Source: a virus. From it: DNA of 60,885 bases. Shown here piece by piece: positions 21,778-57,251 of this stretch (positions are counted from its first letter, which is position 1; each line of letters starts with the position of its first letter). The notes beneath the pieces are model-generated. The model was not told the origin of the DNA, did not search any database, and saw nothing but the letters and a program-made list of their open reading frames with translations. The stretch covers positions 1 to 60,885 of the IMG/VR virus record IMGVR_UViG_3300029319_000040; one strand, 5' to 3'. Made by a program: the position numbers and the translations under genes.

Positions 21778-22806
21778 ATGGTCGAATTCTTAAATCGTTA
21801 TGTCTCACTAGAGAAAGAATCATCTTACGGGTCTGAACCTAGCGGAACTCCTGTCTACGGAGAAGTTGATGATGAAAGTATTCGTCATAACTATGAACTT
21901 ATGACCCGTATGGATATGAGCCGACCTATCAGTTCAAAGTCCGTTACTGGAACCGAGTTTTCAGAAGGCGACATCAACCTCGCTATACAGGTTGATGACT
22001 TTGTAGGCAACTTACTTTACTCTTTCTTCCCACAAGACGCACTTACAACATCGGGTTCGGCTAACATTCATACACTAACAGAGCCTTCTCTTACCAGTGC
22101 ATCTGCTGGCGTTTATCCGTCATTTACTATTCGTGTTGGACGCGAAGAAAAAGAACACACCTTTACTGGTATGATGACTAACACATTAAGCATTAGTGCT
22201 TCGGTTGGAGAATACGCTACAATGAGTGTTGGTTTTGTTGGTAAAGCAGAATCGGCAACCTCCGCTCTTGCTACTCCTACATTCGATGGTGTTGCTCTTG
22301 ACGCACTATACTTCGCTAACGGACAAGTTAGATTCGATGATGGGACCGGCAGCGCACCAGCAGCAGTAGCATCTGTTAAATCATTTAGTTTTGATATTAA
22401 CCTAAATCGTGATACAGATAACGCATATGGTATTGGTAATAGCACTTATGGTCGCGCACCTCCAGCACAGCGCAGAGAAATTAGCGGAACAATTGAGTTT
22501 AACAAAGTAGTTTATACAAGTTCTCTTGATGAGCCTACTTACGATAACTTGATTGCCGCAGACGGTCTTGAATACAACGATGGTTCTTCTCCATCAATGA
22601 AACTAAAATTACTTGATGAAGCGGGAGCAGATTTTATTGACTTTGATTTCTTCAAGGTAAGATTTGAAGCACCCGAAGCATCAGTAAGTGGTCGTGATAC
22701 TAACACAATGACCGTGAACTTTGTAGGTTTGTATGATGATAACTTAGGTGCTATGAAGGTTGTTGCATCGGGAACTCAATTATCAGGCACACAGTATGAT
22801 GCTTGA
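21778..22806 (+). CDS. Major tail tube protein
   Basis: 342 aa. The N-terminus (YVSLEKESSYG...) and the repeated beta pattern with PTFTIRV-like strands, DTNTMTVNFVGLYDD and a Gly-rich end match siphovirus tube proteins, which stack as hexamers to form the tail. It lies upstream of the chaperones and tape measure, as in most tailed phages. SD-like GAGGTG lies about 8 bases upstream. Confidence 0.75.
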   Translation: MVEFLNRYVSLEKESSYGSEPSGTPVYGEVDDESIRHNYELMTRMDMSRPISSKSVTGTEFSEGDINLAIQVDDFVGNLLYSFFPQDALTTSGSANIHTLTEPSLTSASAGVYPSFTIRVGREEKEHTFTGMMTNTLSISASVGEYATMSVGFVGKAESATSALATPTFDGVALDALYFANGQVRFDDGTGSAPAAVASVKSFSFDINLNRDTDNAYGIGNSTYGRAPPAQRREISGTIEFNKVVYTSSLDEPTYDNLIAADGLEYNDGSSPSMKLKLLDEAGADFIDFDFFKVRFEAPEASVSGRDTNTMTVNFVGLYDDNLGAMKVVASGTQLSGTQYDA

Positions 22807-22815
22807 GGTGATTAG

Positions 22816-23010
22816 ATGAGTTTTGTAGAACTAGCAGAATCTCTTGGGTATGAAGTCGATGAGTCTTCCGCAGAAGTTCTAGGAAAAATTGAGAACAAAA
22901 GCGTAGCACTAAAATACATTCGCAGACTTCCTAAGAAGGCAACTAAAAAAGCAGCACCTAAGAAGGCTGCTGCTAAGAAAACACCTTCTAAGAAGGAGAG
23001 TGAAGAATAA
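22816..23010 (+). CDS. Lys/Ala-rich histone-tail-like protein (64 aa)
   Basis: An acidic first half (SLGYEVDESSAEVLG) is followed by a Lys/Ala/Pro tail with repeated KKAA/KKAT units, as in histone H1 or HU-like tails. It probably binds nucleic acid or acidic protein. SD GAGGTGAT precedes the ATG. It lies right after the tail tube gene. Confidence 0.6.
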   Translation: MSFVELAESLGYEVDESSAEVLGKIENKSVALKYIRRLPKKATKKAAPKKAAAKKTPSKKESEE

Positions 23011-23235: not shown

Positions 23236-23343
23236 ATGTCGAGAAGATATACAAAACCAGTAAGTGAAGAGAAGCCAAAGAAGGCTTCAAAGAAGAAAAG
23301 TGGAAAAGTGAAGAAAGATGCCGGTACTAAAAAAGAAAATTGA
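23236..23343 (+). CDS. Lys-rich microprotein (35 aa)
   Basis: ATG at 23236; about 40% Lys with KKASKKKSGKVKK. It overlaps the start of the tail chaperone gene by 26 bases. Similar in composition to the 22816 gene product. It might be a DNA- or tail-tube-binding peptide. Confidence 0.45.
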   Translation: MSRRYTKPVSEEKPKKASKKKSGKVKKDAGTKKEN

Positions 23344-23674
23344 ATTGAACGACGGACGCAAGATTTGGGTGCGACAAGCATCCGGTATGCAGAAACTACG
23401 AATAGAAAACATACAAGCAAAGGTGTTTCGTAAGTTTAAGCATTATGGCGACCCTACTGAATGGACAGATGAGCAAAACGAAGAGTTTGTAAATGCTCTT
23501 GATGAAGCAGGTGGAGGCGTATCTACACAGATGGCTGATTGGATTCCAGATTGTATTCTTGATGACGATATTGATGTAGATACATTGACTAGCGAAGAAT
23601 TGAGAACATTACTAGCATTTGTTCGTGGAGATGACCCGGAGGGTGCAGTCCCTTTGGGCAATTCTTCCGAGTAG
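23318..23674 (+). CDS. Tail assembly chaperone, G-like (118 aa)
   Basis: Begins LKKKIELNDGRKIWVRQAS, as in phage tail assembly chaperones that start from a short beta strand, and has an acidic helical second half. It lies directly upstream of the tape measure, as lambda gpG does. The 3' end carries CCCTTTG at 23650-23656 in the 0 frame as C CCT TTG, a -1 slippery heptamer. Frameshifting there would yield a 214-aa GT-like product ending at 23961. Confidence 0.7.
   Translation: MPVLKKKIELNDGRKIWVRQASGMQKLRIENIQAKVFRKFKHYGDPTEWTDEQNEEFVNALDEAGGGVSTQMADWIPDCILDDDIDVDTLTSEELRTLLAFVRGDDPEGAVPLGNSSE
23650..23656 (+). promoter_or_regulatory. Candidate -1 frameshift slippery site
   Basis: CCCTTTG fits XXXYYYZ and reads C CCT TTG in the chaperone frame. 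Slipping back one base continues in the frame of the next ORF without a stop. An 8-bp perfect hairpin CGCCTTTG/CAAAGGCG (23678-23704, 11-nt loop) lies 21 bases downstream, further than the usual 5-9. Confidence 0.6.
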
Positions 23675-23961
23675 CCGCGCCTTTGTGTATGGCTTTCAAA
23701 GGCGTTTTACCTTCCGATTTATGGGAAAGGTATGACTGCGCGGGAGGGCAGCAACTACTTGAACTTGATTTAGTAGTAGCAAATGAAATAAATGACCGTA
23801 TAGGTGAAGCAACAAAAGATGCCAAGCGTGATGGTAAATCTATGGTTGCTAGGCGCAACCAAAAACGCGAACTCTTAAACAACAATAAAGACCTGTTCCA
23901 AGCGTTGAGAGATGCGAATGTTCCGATTGTGGGCAGTAATGAAAGTGGGGATAGTGAATGA
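23656..23961 (+). CDS. Tail chaperone T-domain, reached by -1 frameshift
   Basis: The frame is open from the slippery site through GQFFRVAAPLC, has no SD before its only early ATG (23689), and ends at 23961 (TGA). The protein-like sequence upstream of any start codon suggests a continuous fusion with the chaperone rather than an independent gene. It overlaps the tape measure start by ATGA. The T-domain in lambda binds the tail tube. Confidence 0.6.
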   Translation, partial: GQFFRVAAPLCMAFKGVLPSDLWERYDCAGGQQLLELDLVVANEINDRIGEATKDAKRDGKSMVARRNQKRELLNNNKDLFQALRDANVPIVGSNESGDSE

Positions 23962-26900
23962 TTGAACTTTTCCCCTCATGGATAATAGCAGTAGTATTCG
24001 CTGCGACCATGCTTGTTAATCGTGCTGGCGCATCCCGTGTTTTCTTCGATGTTATCGGTGTATTTTACGGTAACAGAATGTTAAAAGATGCTAAGGCACA
24101 GTTCGCAACTCTAAATTCACTTGCTCTTGATGGGTTGTCCGGTATTGAAGATGCTGCTTCGATGTTTGGCGCAAAGATGGCTGCTCTAACCGATGACGTA
24201 ATACCTATTGCTAACAGAATCGCAGATGCGCGTATTGAGTTTGAAAAGTTCGTAGAGTCTGCTGACGATGCAGATAAAATAGCCCGTGAAGTAGTTGAGA
24301 TAGGTCAAGGTTTTGGTTTCACAGCCGACCAAGCATTGATGGCCGCAGCACGTATGGCGCAGTTGTCTTCTGTTGTCGGTCCCGATGTTATACCTACTGC
24401 TACACAAGTAGGTATGGAATTTGGTTTGATTGGTGGCATGGGAACAGAAGAGGCCATGACCAAACTAATCAACTTACAACAACAAACTAACTTTATGTTG
24501 GGAGAAAATACATTAGAACAATTCCGCGCTATGGATGCAGAAGAACAAGCCAACGTTGTTAGAGAAAACAGTATAGCGACTCTTGACCAACTAAACACAA
24601 TTGAAAACAGAAGCGCAGCAACAATGCAACATATGACTTTCGTTATGAATCAGTTTGCGTCACAGGCAGATTTGGCAAATGAAAGCATAGCAGGTATGGC
24701 TGCCCAATCCGCTACTTTGATTGAGGCTGGTGAAGAACAAGGAAAGGCTGGTCGTGCGCTAAAACAAATCTACGCTAGGTTGGGTGCTGATACAAGCGGG
24801 GCTGCTAGTGAAATAGAAAAGTTAGGAGTTGCTACAAGAGATTCAAACGGCGATATGAGAGCATTAACACAAATAGTAAATGAACTTGCTCCCGAATATG
24901 CTAAGTTGAATGGTGAACAAAAAACAAATCTTGCTATTGCAGTAGCCGGTACTCATCATTATGCGCGTTTCTTAAAATTGATGGAGAACAATGAAAGAAC
25001 ACAGGAGTTAATGATACAATCTACTTTAGGTCTTAGCCCGGCTATGGATGAAGTAAATATTAGGTTACAAAATCAAGTTACTGTTCTTAGAGAAGCCGAA
25101 GCAGAATTAGATAGATACAAAGGCACTCTCGGTGATGCACTTACGCCTTCTGTTATTATGGCTACGCAAGTACAAGCAGAATACAATAAACAACTAACTT
25201 CTGTGTTTGCTGGTAGAGGCGGTGATTTCTTAAACAACTTATTCGGTGTTTCTAAAGTAGTTCAAGATACTGCTTCTGGTTTTTTTCAAAATTTCGTTAA
25301 TATTGTTCAAATGAACGTGGCTCTTGCGACACAAAAAGTTCTTACTGCTTCTTTACGGGGAGAAGAAATGATTAGAGAAGATTTTATGTCTAGTAAATTA
25401 AGAGGTCGTCAAAGATTTAATAATTTAATAAACACAGAATTAGAGGAACAAAACCAAAAATCAGCACTTGCCGGTATGATAGCAAGAGATTTGTTGATAA
25501 ACACAGAAACTAGAGCGATGATGGAAAGAACTGTAACTGATGAACAATTAAATCAAATGAAAAATGATTTGGCACGACAAGTATCAGAACAAAGAAGACT
25601 AGAAAATGAACAAGATATAATGCAATTTGAAAGGCAAAAAACTAAGGAACAACTCGCTAGACTTTCCCTTTTGCTTAGAGAAAATGAAATAGAGCAACAA
25701 ATAACACAAGAAGCAGCAGAACAGGCTCAGTTCGCTGCTGATGACGCAGCATCAGATTTAGATAAGCACAAAACGATGGATAAAAGAACAAAAGAGGCTA
25801 AACAACTTGAAGCGAGTGCAAATGCTCGCTTAGATTCATCTATGAAAGAAATACAATTAGCCGAACAACAATTAATAATTTTACGCGAACAACATGAAGA
25901 AATGTTAGAACATGAAATGAGTTTGGAACGATTAAAAGCAGATGATAGCGATAGATTAGAGTTAATAACTTTACAACTAAACGCTTTAAAAGAAAGAAAT
26001 AAAGAATCTGCTGCGGAAATAGGTCATATTATGGCAAACAGAGAAGCAGAAAGACAAAGAGTAGCGACTCAATCACAATTGGACGACGATGAAAAAATAG
26101 AAAAACAGGCACTTGCATATGGCAAACAGGCTGTTGCTGGACAACAACTTGCTATGTCCATGATGGCTGCTGGCTCCGCTATGATGATGTTTTCAGGCGC
26201 AACAGATAATGCAGAAGATAGGCAAAAGAGAATGCGAGTTGCTATGGTGTTGATGAATACCGCTATGATACCACAAATACTTAGTATGGCAAAACTAAGT
26301 AAAGAAATGGGCATAGGCATAAATTTAGAAACAATTAAGACGCTTGTGATGAAAAATTCAACAGTAGAAACTGCAAAGGCAACAACTGGCAATACTTTAC
26401 TCGCTGGTTCATACACAGCAGTAGCGACAGCAGCGCGGGCGGCGGGCGCGGCGGCCTTTAGTGCGAGTAAATCTATCGCAAAGTCTTTAGCACCGATGGC
26501 TGCTATGATTGGAATTGGTTATCTTTTGACAGGACTTATGGAAAGGGCTGGTGTGTTTGGTGATGCAGAATTATTTAGTGAAGAAGGAACTGCTAGCATA
26601 CAAGATACAGCAGAGGCTTTTGACAATAATACTAAATCAATAACAGAATTGGCTAATGAAATAGTAGAATATCAAAATGAACTAGACAGAATTGTTGATT
26701 TAGAAGGGCAGCAGTATGAAGATAGAAGAACTCAACTATTAGATTTGATTGCTCTAAATCAAAGATTGATTGGTGTCGTAGGAAGTCAAGTAGCAGAAGA
26801 ATTAGGTTTTCAACAGGCAGCAGAAACTTTATTTGCTTTGGAAGGTCAACTAGGTGATATAGAACAAAAGTTTGGTGCTTTTGACCCTGAAACAGGTACT

Positions 26901-27455
26901 TTTAAAGAGTTCTCTGATGAGTTTGGTATATTAGAGAACATTGGGCAGATAATGAATCGTAGTGATAGATTCATGAAAGAAGAATTAGACGCATCAAGGA
27001 TAGAAGCGCAACGACTGAGTAATGAAATAAATATTTTATTAGCCAGTAATGCAGATTTCGCTGAGTTTATCGAAACTAACGGTGTTACTAGCCTTGAACA
27101 GTTTATAGAAGCACTTGCTCAAAACGACAGAGAATTAGGAAATTTACAAGATACACTTAATGGCTCAGAAGGAGATTTAGGTGCTTTCAATTCAGAAATA
27201 GAAAATTCCATACAGTTGTTTGATGAATTTAACAACGCTAGAGAAGAGTTGTTCTTTGGTTTCAAGGCTGGTAACGTCACTGGTGATTTGGTAAAGCAGA
27301 TAGAGCAGAAGGGCGTTGAAAACTTTGTAGCCAATACTGAGATAATTATGACTAACAATTTCAACGGTATGACTACCGACCAAGTAGCAGATGAAATTTT
27401 GAGAAAGATAAACGAGAGAGCGGTAACTAACGGTATAAACGTAAGTCCAGCGTAA
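23958..27455 (+). CDS. Tape measure protein
   Basis: 1165 aa. A hydrophobic N-terminus (about 5-22) is followed by a helical region with FGFTADQALMAAARMAQLSS, the pattern of TP901-type tape measures. Long coiled coils occupy about 360-700. Hydrophobic segments (about 725-760 and 815-865) include Met/Ala- and Gly/Ala-rich stretches. It sets tail length and may enter the cell membrane during DNA ejection. Start ATG overlaps the chaperone stop. Confidence 0.85.
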   Translation: MIELFPSWIIAVVFAATMLVNRAGASRVFFDVIGVFYGNRMLKDAKAQFATLNSLALDGLSGIEDAASMFGAKMAALTDDVIPIANRIADARIEFEKFVESADDADKIAREVVEIGQGFGFTADQALMAAARMAQLSSVVGPDVIPTATQVGMEFGLIGGMGTEEAMTKLINLQQQTNFMLGENTLEQFRAMDAEEQANVVRENSIATLDQLNTIENRSAATMQHMTFVMNQFASQADLANESIAGMAAQSATLIEAGEEQGKAGRALKQIYARLGADTSGAASEIEKLGVATRDSNGDMRALTQIVNELAPEYAKLNGEQKTNLAIAVAGTHHYARFLKLMENNERTQELMIQSTLGLSPAMDEVNIRLQNQVTVLREAEAELDRYKGTLGDALTPSVIMATQVQAEYNKQLTSVFAGRGGDFLNNLFGVSKVVQDTASGFFQNFVNIVQMNVALATQKVLTASLRGEEMIREDFMSSKLRGRQRFNNLINTELEEQNQKSALAGMIARDLLINTETRAMMERTVTDEQLNQMKNDLARQVSEQRRLENEQDIMQFERQKTKEQLARLSLLLRENEIEQQITQEAAEQAQFAADDAASDLDKHKTMDKRTKEAKQLEASANARLDSSMKEIQLAEQQLIILREQHEEMLEHEMSLERLKADDSDRLELITLQLNALKERNKESAAEIGHIMANREAERQRVATQSQLDDDEKIEKQALAYGKQAVAGQQLAMSMMAAGSAMMMFSGATDNAEDRQKRMRVAMVLMNTAMIPQILSMAKLSKEMGIGINLETIKTLVMKNSTVETAKATTGNTLLAGSYTAVATAARAAGAAAFSASKSIAKSLAPMAAMIGIGYLLTGLMERAGVFGDAELFSEEGTASIQDTAEAFDNNTKSITELANEIVEYQNELDRIVDLEGQQYEDRRTQLLDLIALNQRLIGVVGSQVAEELGFQQAAETLFALEGQLGDIEQKFGAFDPETGTFKEFSDEFGILENIGQIMNRSDRFMKEELDASRIEAQRLSNEINILLASNADFAEFIETNGVTSLEQFIEALAQNDRELGNLQDTLNGSEGDLGAFNSEIENSIQLFDEFNNAREELFFGFKAGNVTGDLVKQIEQKGVENFVANTEIIMTNNFNGMTTDQVADEILRKINERAVTNGINVSPA

Positions 27456-33400: not shown

Positions 33401-34503
33401 TTGCTTACGGCAGAAGTGAATGGTATGCTCCTAGACTTCATATAGTCAATGATATGAGATTTATCCCCGGAACATTCGCAACATACACAGACCAAGGTTT
33501 GAATCTATCTAGCGAAGTCCTAACTATACAAAACGTCAACTGGAGTATAAGTGGTAGAGATACTAGCGATGTTACTTTAACTCTTGAAAGAGATGAATCG
33601 AGAGGTGCTGATAACATAGTCTCTTACATAGCCAGCAACACCATCAACCCTAGAACTGGCACTACTGGCGGCGGCCCACCTAATCCGCTTGCAGGTAGTT
33701 CCGGCTCAACAAACGTATCTGGTATGCCTGATGGTTTCGGCCCGTTACCTAGTGGACCCGCAAACCCATCCGCCTATCTACCGACTGGTGGCACTAAACC
33801 TACCCCCGCAGGTGGATGGAAAGACGGTGGTGGTGCAGGTCTACCGTCTGGTAGCGGTACTAACAATCTAACAGCAGGTGCATATGGTAACATGAAAGGT
33901 AGAATGAATCTCGATTCAGATAATTTTAGTCATCAATCTTCTTTCAACATTTTAGGTCAGAAGAGACAAGGGCCGAAGCCCGGTGCTATGAAAGAGGTAT
34001 CGGCATTCAATAGTTATATGCCAGCCTCCGGTAACGCTACAAAAACAGATGACGGTATGGTGTTACCGGGCGTAGGTCATTCTGATAACACAGGTGATAA
34101 GACTTCATCTATTGAAGGAACTACTATTGTGCCTATCGACGCTTTGAACAACGAAATCAACATAACAGGAAAGGTAACTTGTTCGGGTAGTTTTGGTGCT
34201 GATGGACAAGTATCGGTTTTGACTGTAACTGCATTATGTATAGACACAGACACTACAATAACCAATACTGTAACAATACCAGTAGGTAGTAACAACAGAA
34301 CAGTAGAATTACTACCAACTGCTTTGTTAGACGGTGCGGGTACATACGGTAACAAAATAAAAGTAACTGTAAGTCGCTCTCCCGATGCTGGTAGTGATAC
34401 GGCAGACAATCATTCGGTAATAATACACAACATAGGTGTTTCTTTCAAGAGGTCCGCTTTCTTCTCTCCAAGTCTAGGAAGTGAATTCACTCCGTTTGAA
34501 TAG
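27472..34503 (+). CDS. Giant tail tip / host-recognition protein (2343 aa)
   Basis: Largest gene. A beta-rich N-terminus with a LamG-like domain (about 320-460, from IEWEIDLGA to VEEGTNAAND) is followed by a hub-like segment (about 470-570, LSLTAKDALSVMDRQVPLWD) and a long run of repetitive beta structure. A Gly/Pro/Ser linker (about 2065-2145) leads to a C-terminal beta domain. It lies after the tape measure as tip/fibre proteins do, and likely forms the tip that contacts the host. Only 4 or so Cys are seen in long stretches. It ends head-to-head with the nuclease gene (17-bp overlap). Confidence 0.7.
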   Translation: MVRSTTLDYQFMLAGYYDDFNGARAIPNDDNDPTLTAAYDSDKTHYGNPMNGEATLNPRYRWALPDRNQVAGQDKVVSATFCYIKSVSPAEWLTYDINRQSPEKWEGRAQLQYPDSHVANKYRFNNSGSDGYLLFCNGHDTTGSYYIPTGDYDSTFGREERQPYTIEYYDDGTSTSESNAGELDTINPSSVTYMQRAHLTGCWMAERNFDFNHFTTPSSDTVETPRLHYMPHRSPSGMPFLCIQTYFKDNANIVVDSEKRPAIAYDGMLNSRQDNDTFGIRFAIQSLSMGNLAQSYVANSPKLTIQIGFPSSITPTGEKGFSENTNTAAIEWEIDLGASTAANNGLGGTYDYHNQITTWDGSTYNPASLWIDLEFQIDYTNNRFTVYKDGTAVKNTSGTDGPFAMNNNGDTGAAFLPSAMKGWQIIVEEGTNAANDNHYTLMIDRVGLYQCMTERADGTVLPPITNMKMSNPVNGTSTLKIDIADDAAMNTSNGQIGFRTQDYSHFLSNIFTGTVADWNLLFFYKGIDRPIWRGPFQGMTVNQTERSRTLSLTAKDALSVMDRQVPLWDLGQLGENTTESSTAYWNKESVDFNSAFYMGATALRTFNSTVGLDKDDSYLVRNDQRTQIYSAHPIQMYNNEDVEFGPNDLQEQYEGFGIVGFSISRPASAGGTTTTKVFLNGASLYTTSSTVSTIRTTSHNCTSKSPSAVSTYTSPEGDTKQVLDFATSDLAFVPLSGVEFIYAGRFCPTGQRMTLSTGVSSYSQYINGKYNLIFDADPGLKAGDVFFVPPATFGHFNSGSTTDDYDQITNKPLKVASTKTIDNTWTVPIPFPNAGTTQTMFSGLDGSPSTLFVVTVTKEYGSSGVEYGTFTTTGGLTGDVKGVICRDFGTISPASGTSIATRAIHSTWMRDLANSLWFKYHFGIIQNTADATGTIQANVTPNATTVQIDATSYGQISQNAGLAQITNTDGTVDTFIWRKKLTTGGNYYLVGCSFISQTHLSGAIINVVSTSDSYKHCWLLWSDMRNDGRADADGSTRKTEFGIIEPTVDNYNVELFFVDQTDENGNPDSFTDLKLGSDVDLWEVDATNDPSTQGAFSKPLDFSTTTAVTSLGDSSGALELTVGSGHGVVANDYIYVLNSLYHDKLYEVAGVSSTKITLGAATFQQADSMGTGGAFFVKTTGSEEEALTQYHDWEDKAGAFLVVDSSKFFNLNTIVNNGKSGQSAGGRTDLGDYVATGEGFPVLIDNYWSEAMATYKTVEEPYGQHPNQFRLTSDASTADSSILQNDRHIRLAAGDEFPTAGLGRVIARKGSGQNQTQTIGYITWDATNQTNFTGSVTSVDNTASALTKITDSSADFTELKKIVDAGHQPFIINTTQSNALGIIVACPSTTVIHVATVSSMTAATYGTYSNIAGFTAASSDGYIIPPQLVNVFGSTLSTQSITTTSSPSTLEQALVADKMAFGSESKIHFPSMVIGTGDSQYDSITVLNSVSTQHMTRLMMRVTGFVESPNIGTYFESDKMRMLFNAGLMKTWLPRTRITAMHDIANVPNTTIMTTDGTTTAASQDSFGSVFDARTKTIFAIVKGTQEGSGVGRSLGVAQTFSYLVGRDSRIELRPKYNSGYLFDRSNLIVSTMKADSASVVTNVRVYYNNGKAFADFPTPTVSDTTRWQIVEHPSIINSREAQSIAKHTFEKLKDSRISITASPILQTSSQHTTDKMMTGGRFGYIADTHRVLDHQDYTYSYDWAHVAAGFTPFPGMVNAMDGNLKTSTDLYHRYGQSAPYTSITATSASDIEWTDQYYFYGANSLNYALQIVHVPEDMPYISETTGNEMRLFVGLKPGQSGTDIDNAEFVLLMQDYTFSNSATTNGYTSSTVASLTASGGSGRISSLNVKNSGFYEMSIPTSYSSTLAGAGAKIVVSFNAEYCRALLRHRCGDPTHADILKNAHGITGFATSVITGGNDNSIFPLGGRRYSEFGDFAYGRSEWYAPRLHIVNDMRFIPGTFATYTDQGLNLSSEVLTIQNVNWSISGRDTSDVTLTLERDESRGADNIVSYIASNTINPRTGTTGGGPPNPLAGSSGSTNVSGMPDGFGPLPSGPANPSAYLPTGGTKPTPAGGWKDGGGAGLPSGSGTNNLTAGAYGNMKGRMNLDSDNFSHQSSFNILGQKRQGPKPGAMKEVSAFNSYMPASGNATKTDDGMVLPGVGHSDNTGDKTSSIEGTTIVPIDALNNEINITGKVTCSGSFGADGQVSVLTVTALCIDTDTTITNTVTIPVGSNNRTVELLPTALLDGAGTYGNKIKVTVSRSPDAGSDTADNHSVIIHNIGVSFKRSAFFSPSLGSEFTPFE

Positions 34504-35206
34504 GCTCTCTTAGTGAGAGGATTCTCTTTGCCTTTTCTCTACCTATACCTTTTACTTCCATGATAGATTTCTGTGATGTTCTCTTGTTGAGTATCTTAGG
34601 TATAGTCCCGAACTTACGAAGAAGTTCTTGAGCCATGTGTGGGGTTATGCCTTGTATCGAAGAGAGTACCTTTACTCGCGGGTCCAAATCAGATGTTTGA
34701 CTAATCCTAACTTCCTCTGGTACTTTTCCTAATCTGTTGCTGATTAGATGATTAGTGTGCATGGTCATAATAAAATCTACAAAGTCGTCCATAGTAAGCA
34801 ACTCCATGAATTTTATGTTGGGGAATCGAGAATAGAACGAAATCTTGAATGCTTTTATCACTGAGCGCATCTTAGCCATTTCTTTCGCCACCAGTTGCGC
34901 CGAGGGTCTACCGCCCGGAACCCAAGGCTTCAATTTAGTACCATAAACTACCAGCATAGGATTCTCAAATGTCTCTTCTAAATCACGAAGTTGAGATACG
35001 ATAGTTCTAGTTCTTCCTATACCCAAGATAGACCTGTACAAGTCGTTTATTTCTTTGGCTTCTATGCCTATATCTCCTATGATATAATCAGCAGAATCTA
35101 ATCTAGCAACCTTGGATATTCCGTCGCTAGATTGGTTCGCATTTCCGCCCCTTATCAGCATCTTGTGGATTAACTTCTCGTTCTCACGGTCATCTATGAG
35201 AATCAT
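34487..35206 (-). CDS. XPF/ERCC4-family structure-specific nuclease
   Basis: 239 aa. DDRE at 5-8, GD at 44-45 and EAKEINDL at 49-56 correspond to the XPF nuclease motif (GDxxxERKxxxD), with the Arg of ERK replaced by Ala; Glu and Lys remain. The C-terminus (about 170-235) has two helix-hairpin-helix motifs (GITPHMAQELL, VKGIGREKAKRIL). The family cuts branched DNA (forks, flaps). ATG lies about 25 bp after a TATA box that overlaps the primase stop codon. Confidence 0.85.
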   Translation of the reverse strand: MILIDDRENEKLIHKMLIRGGNANQSSDGISKVARLDSADYIIGDIGIEAKEINDLYRSILGIGRTRTIVSQLRDLEETFENPMLVVYGTKLKPWVPGGRPSAQLVAKEMAKMRSVIKAFKISFYSRFPNIKFMELLTMDDFVDFIMTMHTNHLISNRLGKVPEEVRISQTSDLDPRVKVLSSIQGITPHMAQELLRKFGTIPKILNKRTSQKSIMEVKGIGREKAKRILSLREPIQTE

Positions 35207-56213: not shown

Positions 56214-57251
56214 TTATTCTTCCTCCTTCTTATCTTCTTCTTTGAAACCGAACACATCAGGCATCAGTAGTTCACAAGCCCTTTGAGCCTTTGAAGCAGA
56301 ACTGTTGATGAACTTAGCACCACCATCCTTAGCCTCTTTGATAGCCTTTAGCCAACTTTGAAGATATGATGCTGAATTTTCTAGTCCTTCCTCAAGAGCC
56401 TTCCCTTCGATTCCAGCACCCATACAGAGCATAGCCGCACCCATCTCAGCAACCAGTTCTTCTCTAGCATAATCCTCGCCTCCAAACATTCCACTCAAGT
56501 CCCTATCTAATCTTGAAGCATGACCAGTCCAATGAACTGCCTCATGGAAAGCAGTACCAACTCGACCTTCTGCCGTCTTGAATAAATCTCTGTTGGGGAG
56601 ATGGATATAATCTTGACTAGGTGAATAGTATGCTCTACCCTGCTTTGATTCTCTAAAGTCGATTTCCAAATCCTCTACCATTTTATCGAATATCCTTTCA
56701 GCATCAATGATAGCCATTTCCTTTTTCTTCTTCTCTTCCTTCTTGGTCATCTTAGGCTTCTCAATCGGTGGCAGACCTGTTTCTGCTCTGTTGAATACTA
56801 AGAAATACTTAGGATGGAATGAGTGTCTAACTCTTTCTTCTCCAGTCACCTCATCTTCTTCAATCCACCTAGACTTCTTCCAATAGACAACGGGATGAGA
56901 CTTAGCACCTTTCTGAACTCCAAAGTATTCGTCGGAACCGATAGATTTAGCGTGTTGTTCTCCCTTCTTCTTCCAGATATTGTAAGTACCCCACTGATTA
57001 TCGACATAATTATTTTCATCCCGAACTATACTTAGATACCAGACATTAGTGCCTCGATATGATTTACCAGTAGATGCTGAAACAGGTAGGTCTGTACCAA
57101 ACATTCCGAATGATTGACCACCCTTCCAAGGTTTGTTCCAAGGTCGGACTCCCTTCTCCAGATTTTCGATTATCTTTGATGCTACTTTCTTATGAACATC
57201 TAAAGCCTTCTGTCTTGCATTTCCTTTCTTCTTTGTTTTCGTTCTAGCCAT
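56214..57251 (-). CDS. ArdC-like antirestriction protein (345 aa)
   Basis: N-terminal ArdC-type domain (LDVHKKVASKIIENLEKGVR, then PWNKPWKGG and SYRGTNVWYL). The C-terminal zincin-like domain has FHEAVHWTGH (about 231-240) and YAREELVAEMGAA, the HExxH and distal Glu. The family binds single-stranded DNA and protects incoming DNA from restriction. Basic N-terminus; Lys/Glu-rich insert at about 165-180. Follows composite promoter P6, so probably early. Confidence 0.85.
   Translation of the reverse strand: MARTKTKKKGNARQKALDVHKKVASKIIENLEKGVRPWNKPWKGGQSFGMFGTDLPVSASTGKSYRGTNVWYLSIVRDENNYVDNQWGTYNIWKKKGEQHAKSIGSDEYFGVQKGAKSHPVVYWKKSRWIEEDEVTGEERVRHSFHPKYFLVFNRAETGLPPIEKPKMTKKEEKKKKEMAIIDAERIFDKMVEDLEIDFRESKQGRAYYSPSQDYIHLPNRDLFKTAEGRVGTAFHEAVHWTGHASRLDRDLSGMFGGEDYAREELVAEMGAAMLCMGAGIEGKALEEGLENSASYLQSWLKAIKEAKDGGAKFINSSASKAQRACELLMPDVFGFKEEDKKEEE

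Follow-up and report, generated by a model that had tools for sequence, protein, structure and literature searches.

The overlapping reading frames and their neighbourhood

Two overlapping open reading frames lie on the plus strand of the window, the whole 60,885-nucleotide stretch of viral DNA analysed here, between the genes for the tail tube and tape measure proteins. ORF1 (23318..23674) runs from an ATG at 23318 to a TAG at 23672-23674, as read directly from the sequence, and would be the N-terminal, G-like part of a tail assembly chaperone, its 118-aa product presumably being the abundant one. Near its end is a putative slippery heptamer (23650..23656, plus strand), embedded in the 0-frame codons GTC CCT TTG GGC, on which the P-site Pro tRNA could move from CCT to CCC and the A-site Leu tRNA from TTG to TTT. 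The preliminary description had phased this CCCTTTG as C CCT TTG and had the -1 frame open through GQFFRVAAPLC into a second reading frame, giving a 214-aa fusion, all of which is confirmed by direct reading. No stop interrupts the -1 frame from about 23635 until a TGA at 23959-23961, the peptide it encodes from the heptamer on is P F G Q F F R V A A P L C M A F K G and the fusion amounts to 113 + 101 = 214 aa. The T-like ORF2 (23656..23961, plus strand) would be entered by -1 frameshifting, the ORF1 TAG serving ribosomes that have not shifted. It had also been described as having a late ATG and no Shine-Dalgarno sequence, and this holds since the first -1-frame ATG is at 23689 (a TTG is found at 23683) and nothing resembling a Shine-Dalgarno sequence precedes that ATG. 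Among the window genes examined, X XXY YYZ heptamers occur in frame 46 times in 14,330 codon positions and CCCTTTG just once, and chance would be expected to place only ~0.04 X XXY YYZ heptamers in the 13-codon overlap (0.02 if Y is A or T).

The tape measure gene (23958..27455, plus strand) matches PhageMin_Tail (1.6e-14) and several PHROG tape-measure families, bearing out the earlier proposal that the two ORFs directly precede it, as G/GT do in phage lambda. Small genes separate ORF1 from the tail tube gene (21778..22806, plus strand; Phage_tube_2, 1.3e-21), and the same gene order is found in relatives. Small lysine-rich ORFs are present upstream of ORF1 at 23236-23343 and 22816-23010, the former overlapping the ORF1 start by 26 nt. 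The ORF2 stop and the tape measure ATG overlap as ATGA (23958-23961), which suggests translational coupling. In one lineage of relatives (L112, L113, L118, L129 and L139) the tail tube ORF is much longer, spanning 537-633 codons from stop to stop versus ~340.

We infer a chaperone function mainly because of gene position and the frameshift itself. No meaningful profile match was found for ORF1 or ORF2 among the tail assembly chaperone families of Pfam and PHROGs, and ORF1, the portal and a 306-aa structural protein did not match named relatives in a phage collection. The AlphaFold model of ORF1 has a pLDDT of 92.5. When it was compared with the PDB using Foldseek, the HK97 chaperone (2ob9) was the second match, a weak one (E 0.41), and in a viral library ~12 of the named top-50 matches were tail assembly proteins, none of them significant alone.

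The source is an uncultured marine virus, and its host is likely archaeal. The best PDB matches of its clamp loader are archaeal RFC small subunits, its polymerase B matches archaeal enzymes, with Halorubrum virus HRTV-11 having the top score among the matches listed, and an ERCC4 (XPF/Hef-type) nuclease with a helix-hairpin-helix domain (34487-35206, minus strand) resembles archaeal proteins. The clamp loader and the terminase have matches in T4-like phages as well, and no relative that would provide a host link was found in scans of genome contigs. An ArdC-type anti-restriction protein with ArdcN and MPTase-PolyVal domains is encoded on the minus strand (56214-57251). A family B polymerase and a clamp loader are also common to the window and to the Aoguangviridae/magroviruses, tailed viruses of marine archaea with genomes of 90-100 kb (PMC10768690). 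The ICTV genome map of these viruses marks a tail assembly chaperone (PMC10768690), and no mention of a frameshift in them was found in the literature searched.

The junction in relatives

Relatives of ORF1 were identified by tblastn (58) and, for further ones, by profile search. Scans of uncultured viral contigs yielded 434 loci with both ORFs, many of which are overlapping pieces of the same contigs, so that the count to use is that of the 136 distinct junctions. Relative to ORF1, the frame of ORF2 is -1 in 434/434 loci and +1 in none, nor are the two ever fused as a single ORF among these loci. For a first set of 102 distinct junctions, the slip site was placed without reference to the Lys-Gly motif; in every one of them it lies exactly 16 codons from a conserved Lys-Gly pair of ORF2, without indels, and at this same register a slip-prone sequence is present in all 136 distinct junctions. 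The position of the ORF1 stop, counted from the start of the heptamer, varies (+7, +10, +13, +16, +19, +22 or +34), and a spacing that is fixed in the -1 frame independently of this stop is what is expected if the ORFs form a fusion.

Conservation of the heptamer in relatives had been set beforehand as the test on which a frameshift could fail, and the frameshift reading survives it across the 136 distinct junctions. A canonical X XXY YYZ heptamer in the correct phase is found in 125 of them; the remaining 11 are non-canonical and have a TTTT run only, which counts against this reading. Some relatives have lost the CCC part of the heptamer, but this is confined to two related lineages, which gained TTTT or TTTTTTG. 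At the level of individual nucleotides, the Pro codon of the slip site is CCT in all 100 CCCTTTG/CCCTTTA junctions and the codon before it ends in C in 100/100, be it for Ile, Val, Pro, Leu, Cys or Thr (ATC, GTC, CCC, CTC, TGC and ACC), whereas elsewhere in ORF1 a final C is found in just 7-21% of the codons for Val, Ile, Leu, Pro and Thr. Since the sequences tested fall into 30 separate clusters of ORF1 (80% identity), this pattern is not due to near-copies.

Selection on the protein extends across the ORF1 stop. Between that stop and the first ATG, pN/pS in the main group is 0.26 in the -1 frame versus 0.78 and 5.1 in the other frames; by this measure, the linker is evolving as a -1-frame protein. 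A helix predicted in a structure model of the -1-frame product (residues 5-15) spans the stop. An ORF2 that is a separate gene, with its own start at 23689 or 23683 or translated by termination-reinitiation after the ORF1 stop, would dispense with frameshifting altogether. An independent start cannot, however, explain the 21 junctions in which there is no ATG, GTG or TTG from the heptamer through Lys-Gly (30 have no ATG there), even though the window and most relatives do have an ATG at the LCMAFKG motif. Neither would a separate gene account for the constant 16 codons between slip site and Lys-Gly, nor for conservation in the -1 frame that reaches upstream of the start, both in the main group and in a clade with a TTTT run (pN/pS of 0.05 upstream of the overlapping ATG versus 1.9 in the 0 frame). 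It is in many members of this TTTT clade that TAATG or TGATG overlaps the ORF1 stop, as reinitiation would have it, and a public viral protein of 85 aa that matches ORF2 (A0A516MCV4) was, to judge from its length, apparently annotated as a separate gene. Taken together, we regard a separate ORF2 as very unlikely.

Other explanations fare worse still. Slippage of RNA polymerase, rather than of the ribosome, might be envisaged on the six-T run of one derived clade, but at the usual site the runs are of just three bases (CCC and TTT), which are too short for it, and the conserved feature is a codon phase, X XXY YYZ, making this scenario barely credible. That the apparent frameshift is a sequencing or assembly error, or a sign of gene decay, might be suspected as the data are metagenome assemblies only, but it is refuted, and its probability practically nil, because the 136 distinct junctions share the same split, their slippery nucleotides are conserved and both ORFs are under purifying selection.

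ORF1 and ORF2 are thus very probably a single tail assembly chaperone gene with a programmed -1 frameshift, similar to lambda G/GT. Comparison of the relatives shows a single frame relation, a fixed spacing, conserved slippery nucleotides and protein-level selection across the stop and, on these comparative grounds, ORF2 is translated as a fusion with ORF1. In the proposed scheme, most ribosomes would finish at the ORF1 stop and produce the short 118-aa form, while on C CCT TTG a minority would move back by one base, run past the stop and enter ORF2 to produce the 214-aa fusion, as lambda does with G and GT; we infer the efficiency of this shift and the ratio of the two proteins. The analogy with lambda suggests that the short form would coat the tape measure protein and that the C-terminal extension of the fusion would recruit tail tube subunits.

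A frameshift in the tail chaperone gene is characteristic of tailed phages and already known; unusual here is the strength of the comparative support, from 136 junctions. The lambda G/GT frameshift uses GGGAAAG (reviewed in PMC5009743), and there too two products arise from overlapping ORFs before the tape measure gene, although the heptamer here is CCCTTTG and there is no detectable sequence homology. The preliminary description implied that such a frameshift would be novel for an archaeal virus, which turns out not to be the case since a -1 frameshift at the same gene position was predicted earlier in tailed haloarchaeal viruses, i.e. HVTV-1 and HCTV-1/2/5 (PMC5009743, PMC8211752) and Hardycor1 (PMC7911831), with the heptamers GGGAAAC, AAAAAAC and GGGAAAG (HCTV-1, -2, -5) and GGGAAAT (Hardycor1). 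These predictions concern single genomes and, so far as the papers cited show, come without family-wide comparison. In HF1-like haloviruses the shift is believed to be +1 (PMC7230728), and -1 frameshifting has been demonstrated in archaea in one case only, a Sulfolobus fucosidase, according to a 2021 review (PMC8211752, PMC8037382). In the open literature, no paper was found that joins Poseidoniales, frameshift and tail, and none on CCCTTTG in a chaperone frameshift role. The comparison gives strong evidence that a large, uncultured group of marine tailed viruses uses a chaperone frameshift of the lambda type; ORF2 could be mistaken for a separate gene in them.

Turnover of the slip site

Slipperiness is kept in the heptamer forms seen in relatives, which are CCCTTTG, CCCTTTA, CCCTTTT and, once, TTTTTTG. 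Slip-site variants include ACCTTTTC as well as TTTTTTG, and this natural variation offers a direct way to test the rules by which a probably archaeal ribosome slips. When the fusion proteins are placed on a tree, changes in the first base of the heptamer are confined to the one clade with a TTTT run, which has 27 tree rows, 11 of them with a non-canonical XCCTTTT or XCATTTT. A four-T run would permit perfect re-pairing of the Phe tRNA, and re-pairing of the Pro tRNA may no longer be needed. In the TTTT clade, as opposed to the window, we therefore consider it rather probable that the CCC part is dispensable and that single-tRNA Phe slippage on T TTT and/or reinitiation is at work. The confinement of first-base changes to this clade, where there are seven changes of label, five of them forced by well-supported branches, argues for such a change of mechanism, as does the finding that selection in the -1 frame upstream of the ATG persists in the subset without the C (pN 0.019, pS 0.323). 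Furthermore, L058 and L191 have kept ORF2 with neither a canonical heptamer nor an overlapping ATG. However, the losses are shallow, hence some of the selection signal may be older than they are, and sequence alone cannot separate reinitiation from slippage; reinitiation at the ATG overlapping the ORF1 stop may contribute in this clade.

TTTTTTG is the heptamer of the phage P2 type. In a nine-member clade of relatives distinct from the window (L261, L277, L278, L283, L284, L288 and L291-L293), it has replaced the usual site one codon further downstream and is followed, 5 nt downstream, by an 8-bp hairpin (GUGAGGGU-NGC-ACCCUCAC). In L100 and L103, CCC-type and TTTTTTG sites are found in tandem (CCCTTTTTTG).

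Candidate RNA stimulators

A perfect 8-bp stem had been noted downstream of the heptamer, and such a hairpin is indeed present at 23678..23704 (plus strand), with arms CGCCTTTG/CAAAGGCG at 23678-23685/23697-23704. As a conserved stimulator it was rejected, because all eight pairs are kept in only 5/101 relatives' junctions and it begins 21 nt after the heptamer, too far downstream for a stimulatory structure, whose spacing would be 5-9 nt. The hairpin is therefore probably not part of the frameshift mechanism. The minimum free energy at this site has a z of -1.1 versus synonymous shuffles, and a search for H-type pseudoknots found none in the window. RNAalifold found no consensus RNA structure common to all relatives, and a search with synonymous-codon shuffles found no structure in the TTTT clade. 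The window's own clade has no stimulatory structure that is clearly conserved, which counts against the frameshift reading. A Shine-Dalgarno-like GGAGG upstream of the heptamer was also considered as a conserved stimulator; the exact GGAGG varies among relatives, and its role is doubtful because Glu/Asp-Gly codons force GAN GGN.

The most interesting lead is a candidate pseudoknot in relatives, which provides a concrete candidate for a stimulator. In a clade of 16 junctions with the stop directly after the heptamer, synonymous divergence is 0.00 at +15 to +30 and 0.16-0.22 up to +60, versus ~0.4-0.7 in the flanks. A candidate H-type pseudoknot in this clade, in L029, in L043 and in the L113 group does at least as well as nearly all of 60 synonymous-codon shuffles. 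Its first stem, which starts 7-10 nt after the heptamer, exists in the versions UAGAG:CUCUA, CACAAG:CUUGUG and GCAAG:UUUGC, in registers that differ between lineages, and covariation is seen in the second stem (GCCCCCU:AGGGGGU, GCCCCUU:AAGGGGU or GCGCCCU:AGGGCGU). The second stem keeps 96.6% of its pair cells, with compensatory changes from C-G to G-C at the third bases of Ala and Gly codons and from C-G to U-A between Pro and Lys codons. Neither the number of doubly changed cells nor the covariation score is matched in any of 500 shuffles, a result that describes rather than proves covariation as the sequences were chosen for showing the structure. In the 115 junctions with Ala-Pro and Lys-Gly, which were chosen regardless of structure, the Ala and Gly third bases pair 40 times versus 20.9 expected, and in the group with stops at +22/+34 they pair 18 times versus 9.0, counts that are inflated by relatedness, for which the shuffles make no correction.

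That some relatives stimulate the frameshift with a conserved H-type pseudoknot 7-10 nt after the heptamer is thus put forward tentatively, as possible rather than probable. If true, this would be pseudoknot-stimulated -1 frameshifting in viruses of archaea, and slippery sites and stimulators would replace each other over evolution, family-wide. In a number of loci (L024, L025, L027, L095, L102, L104, L119, L125, L136, L217, L262, L263 and L267-L270), the ~60 nt after the heptamer are nearly invariant even at synonymous positions, which would fit an H-type pseudoknot.
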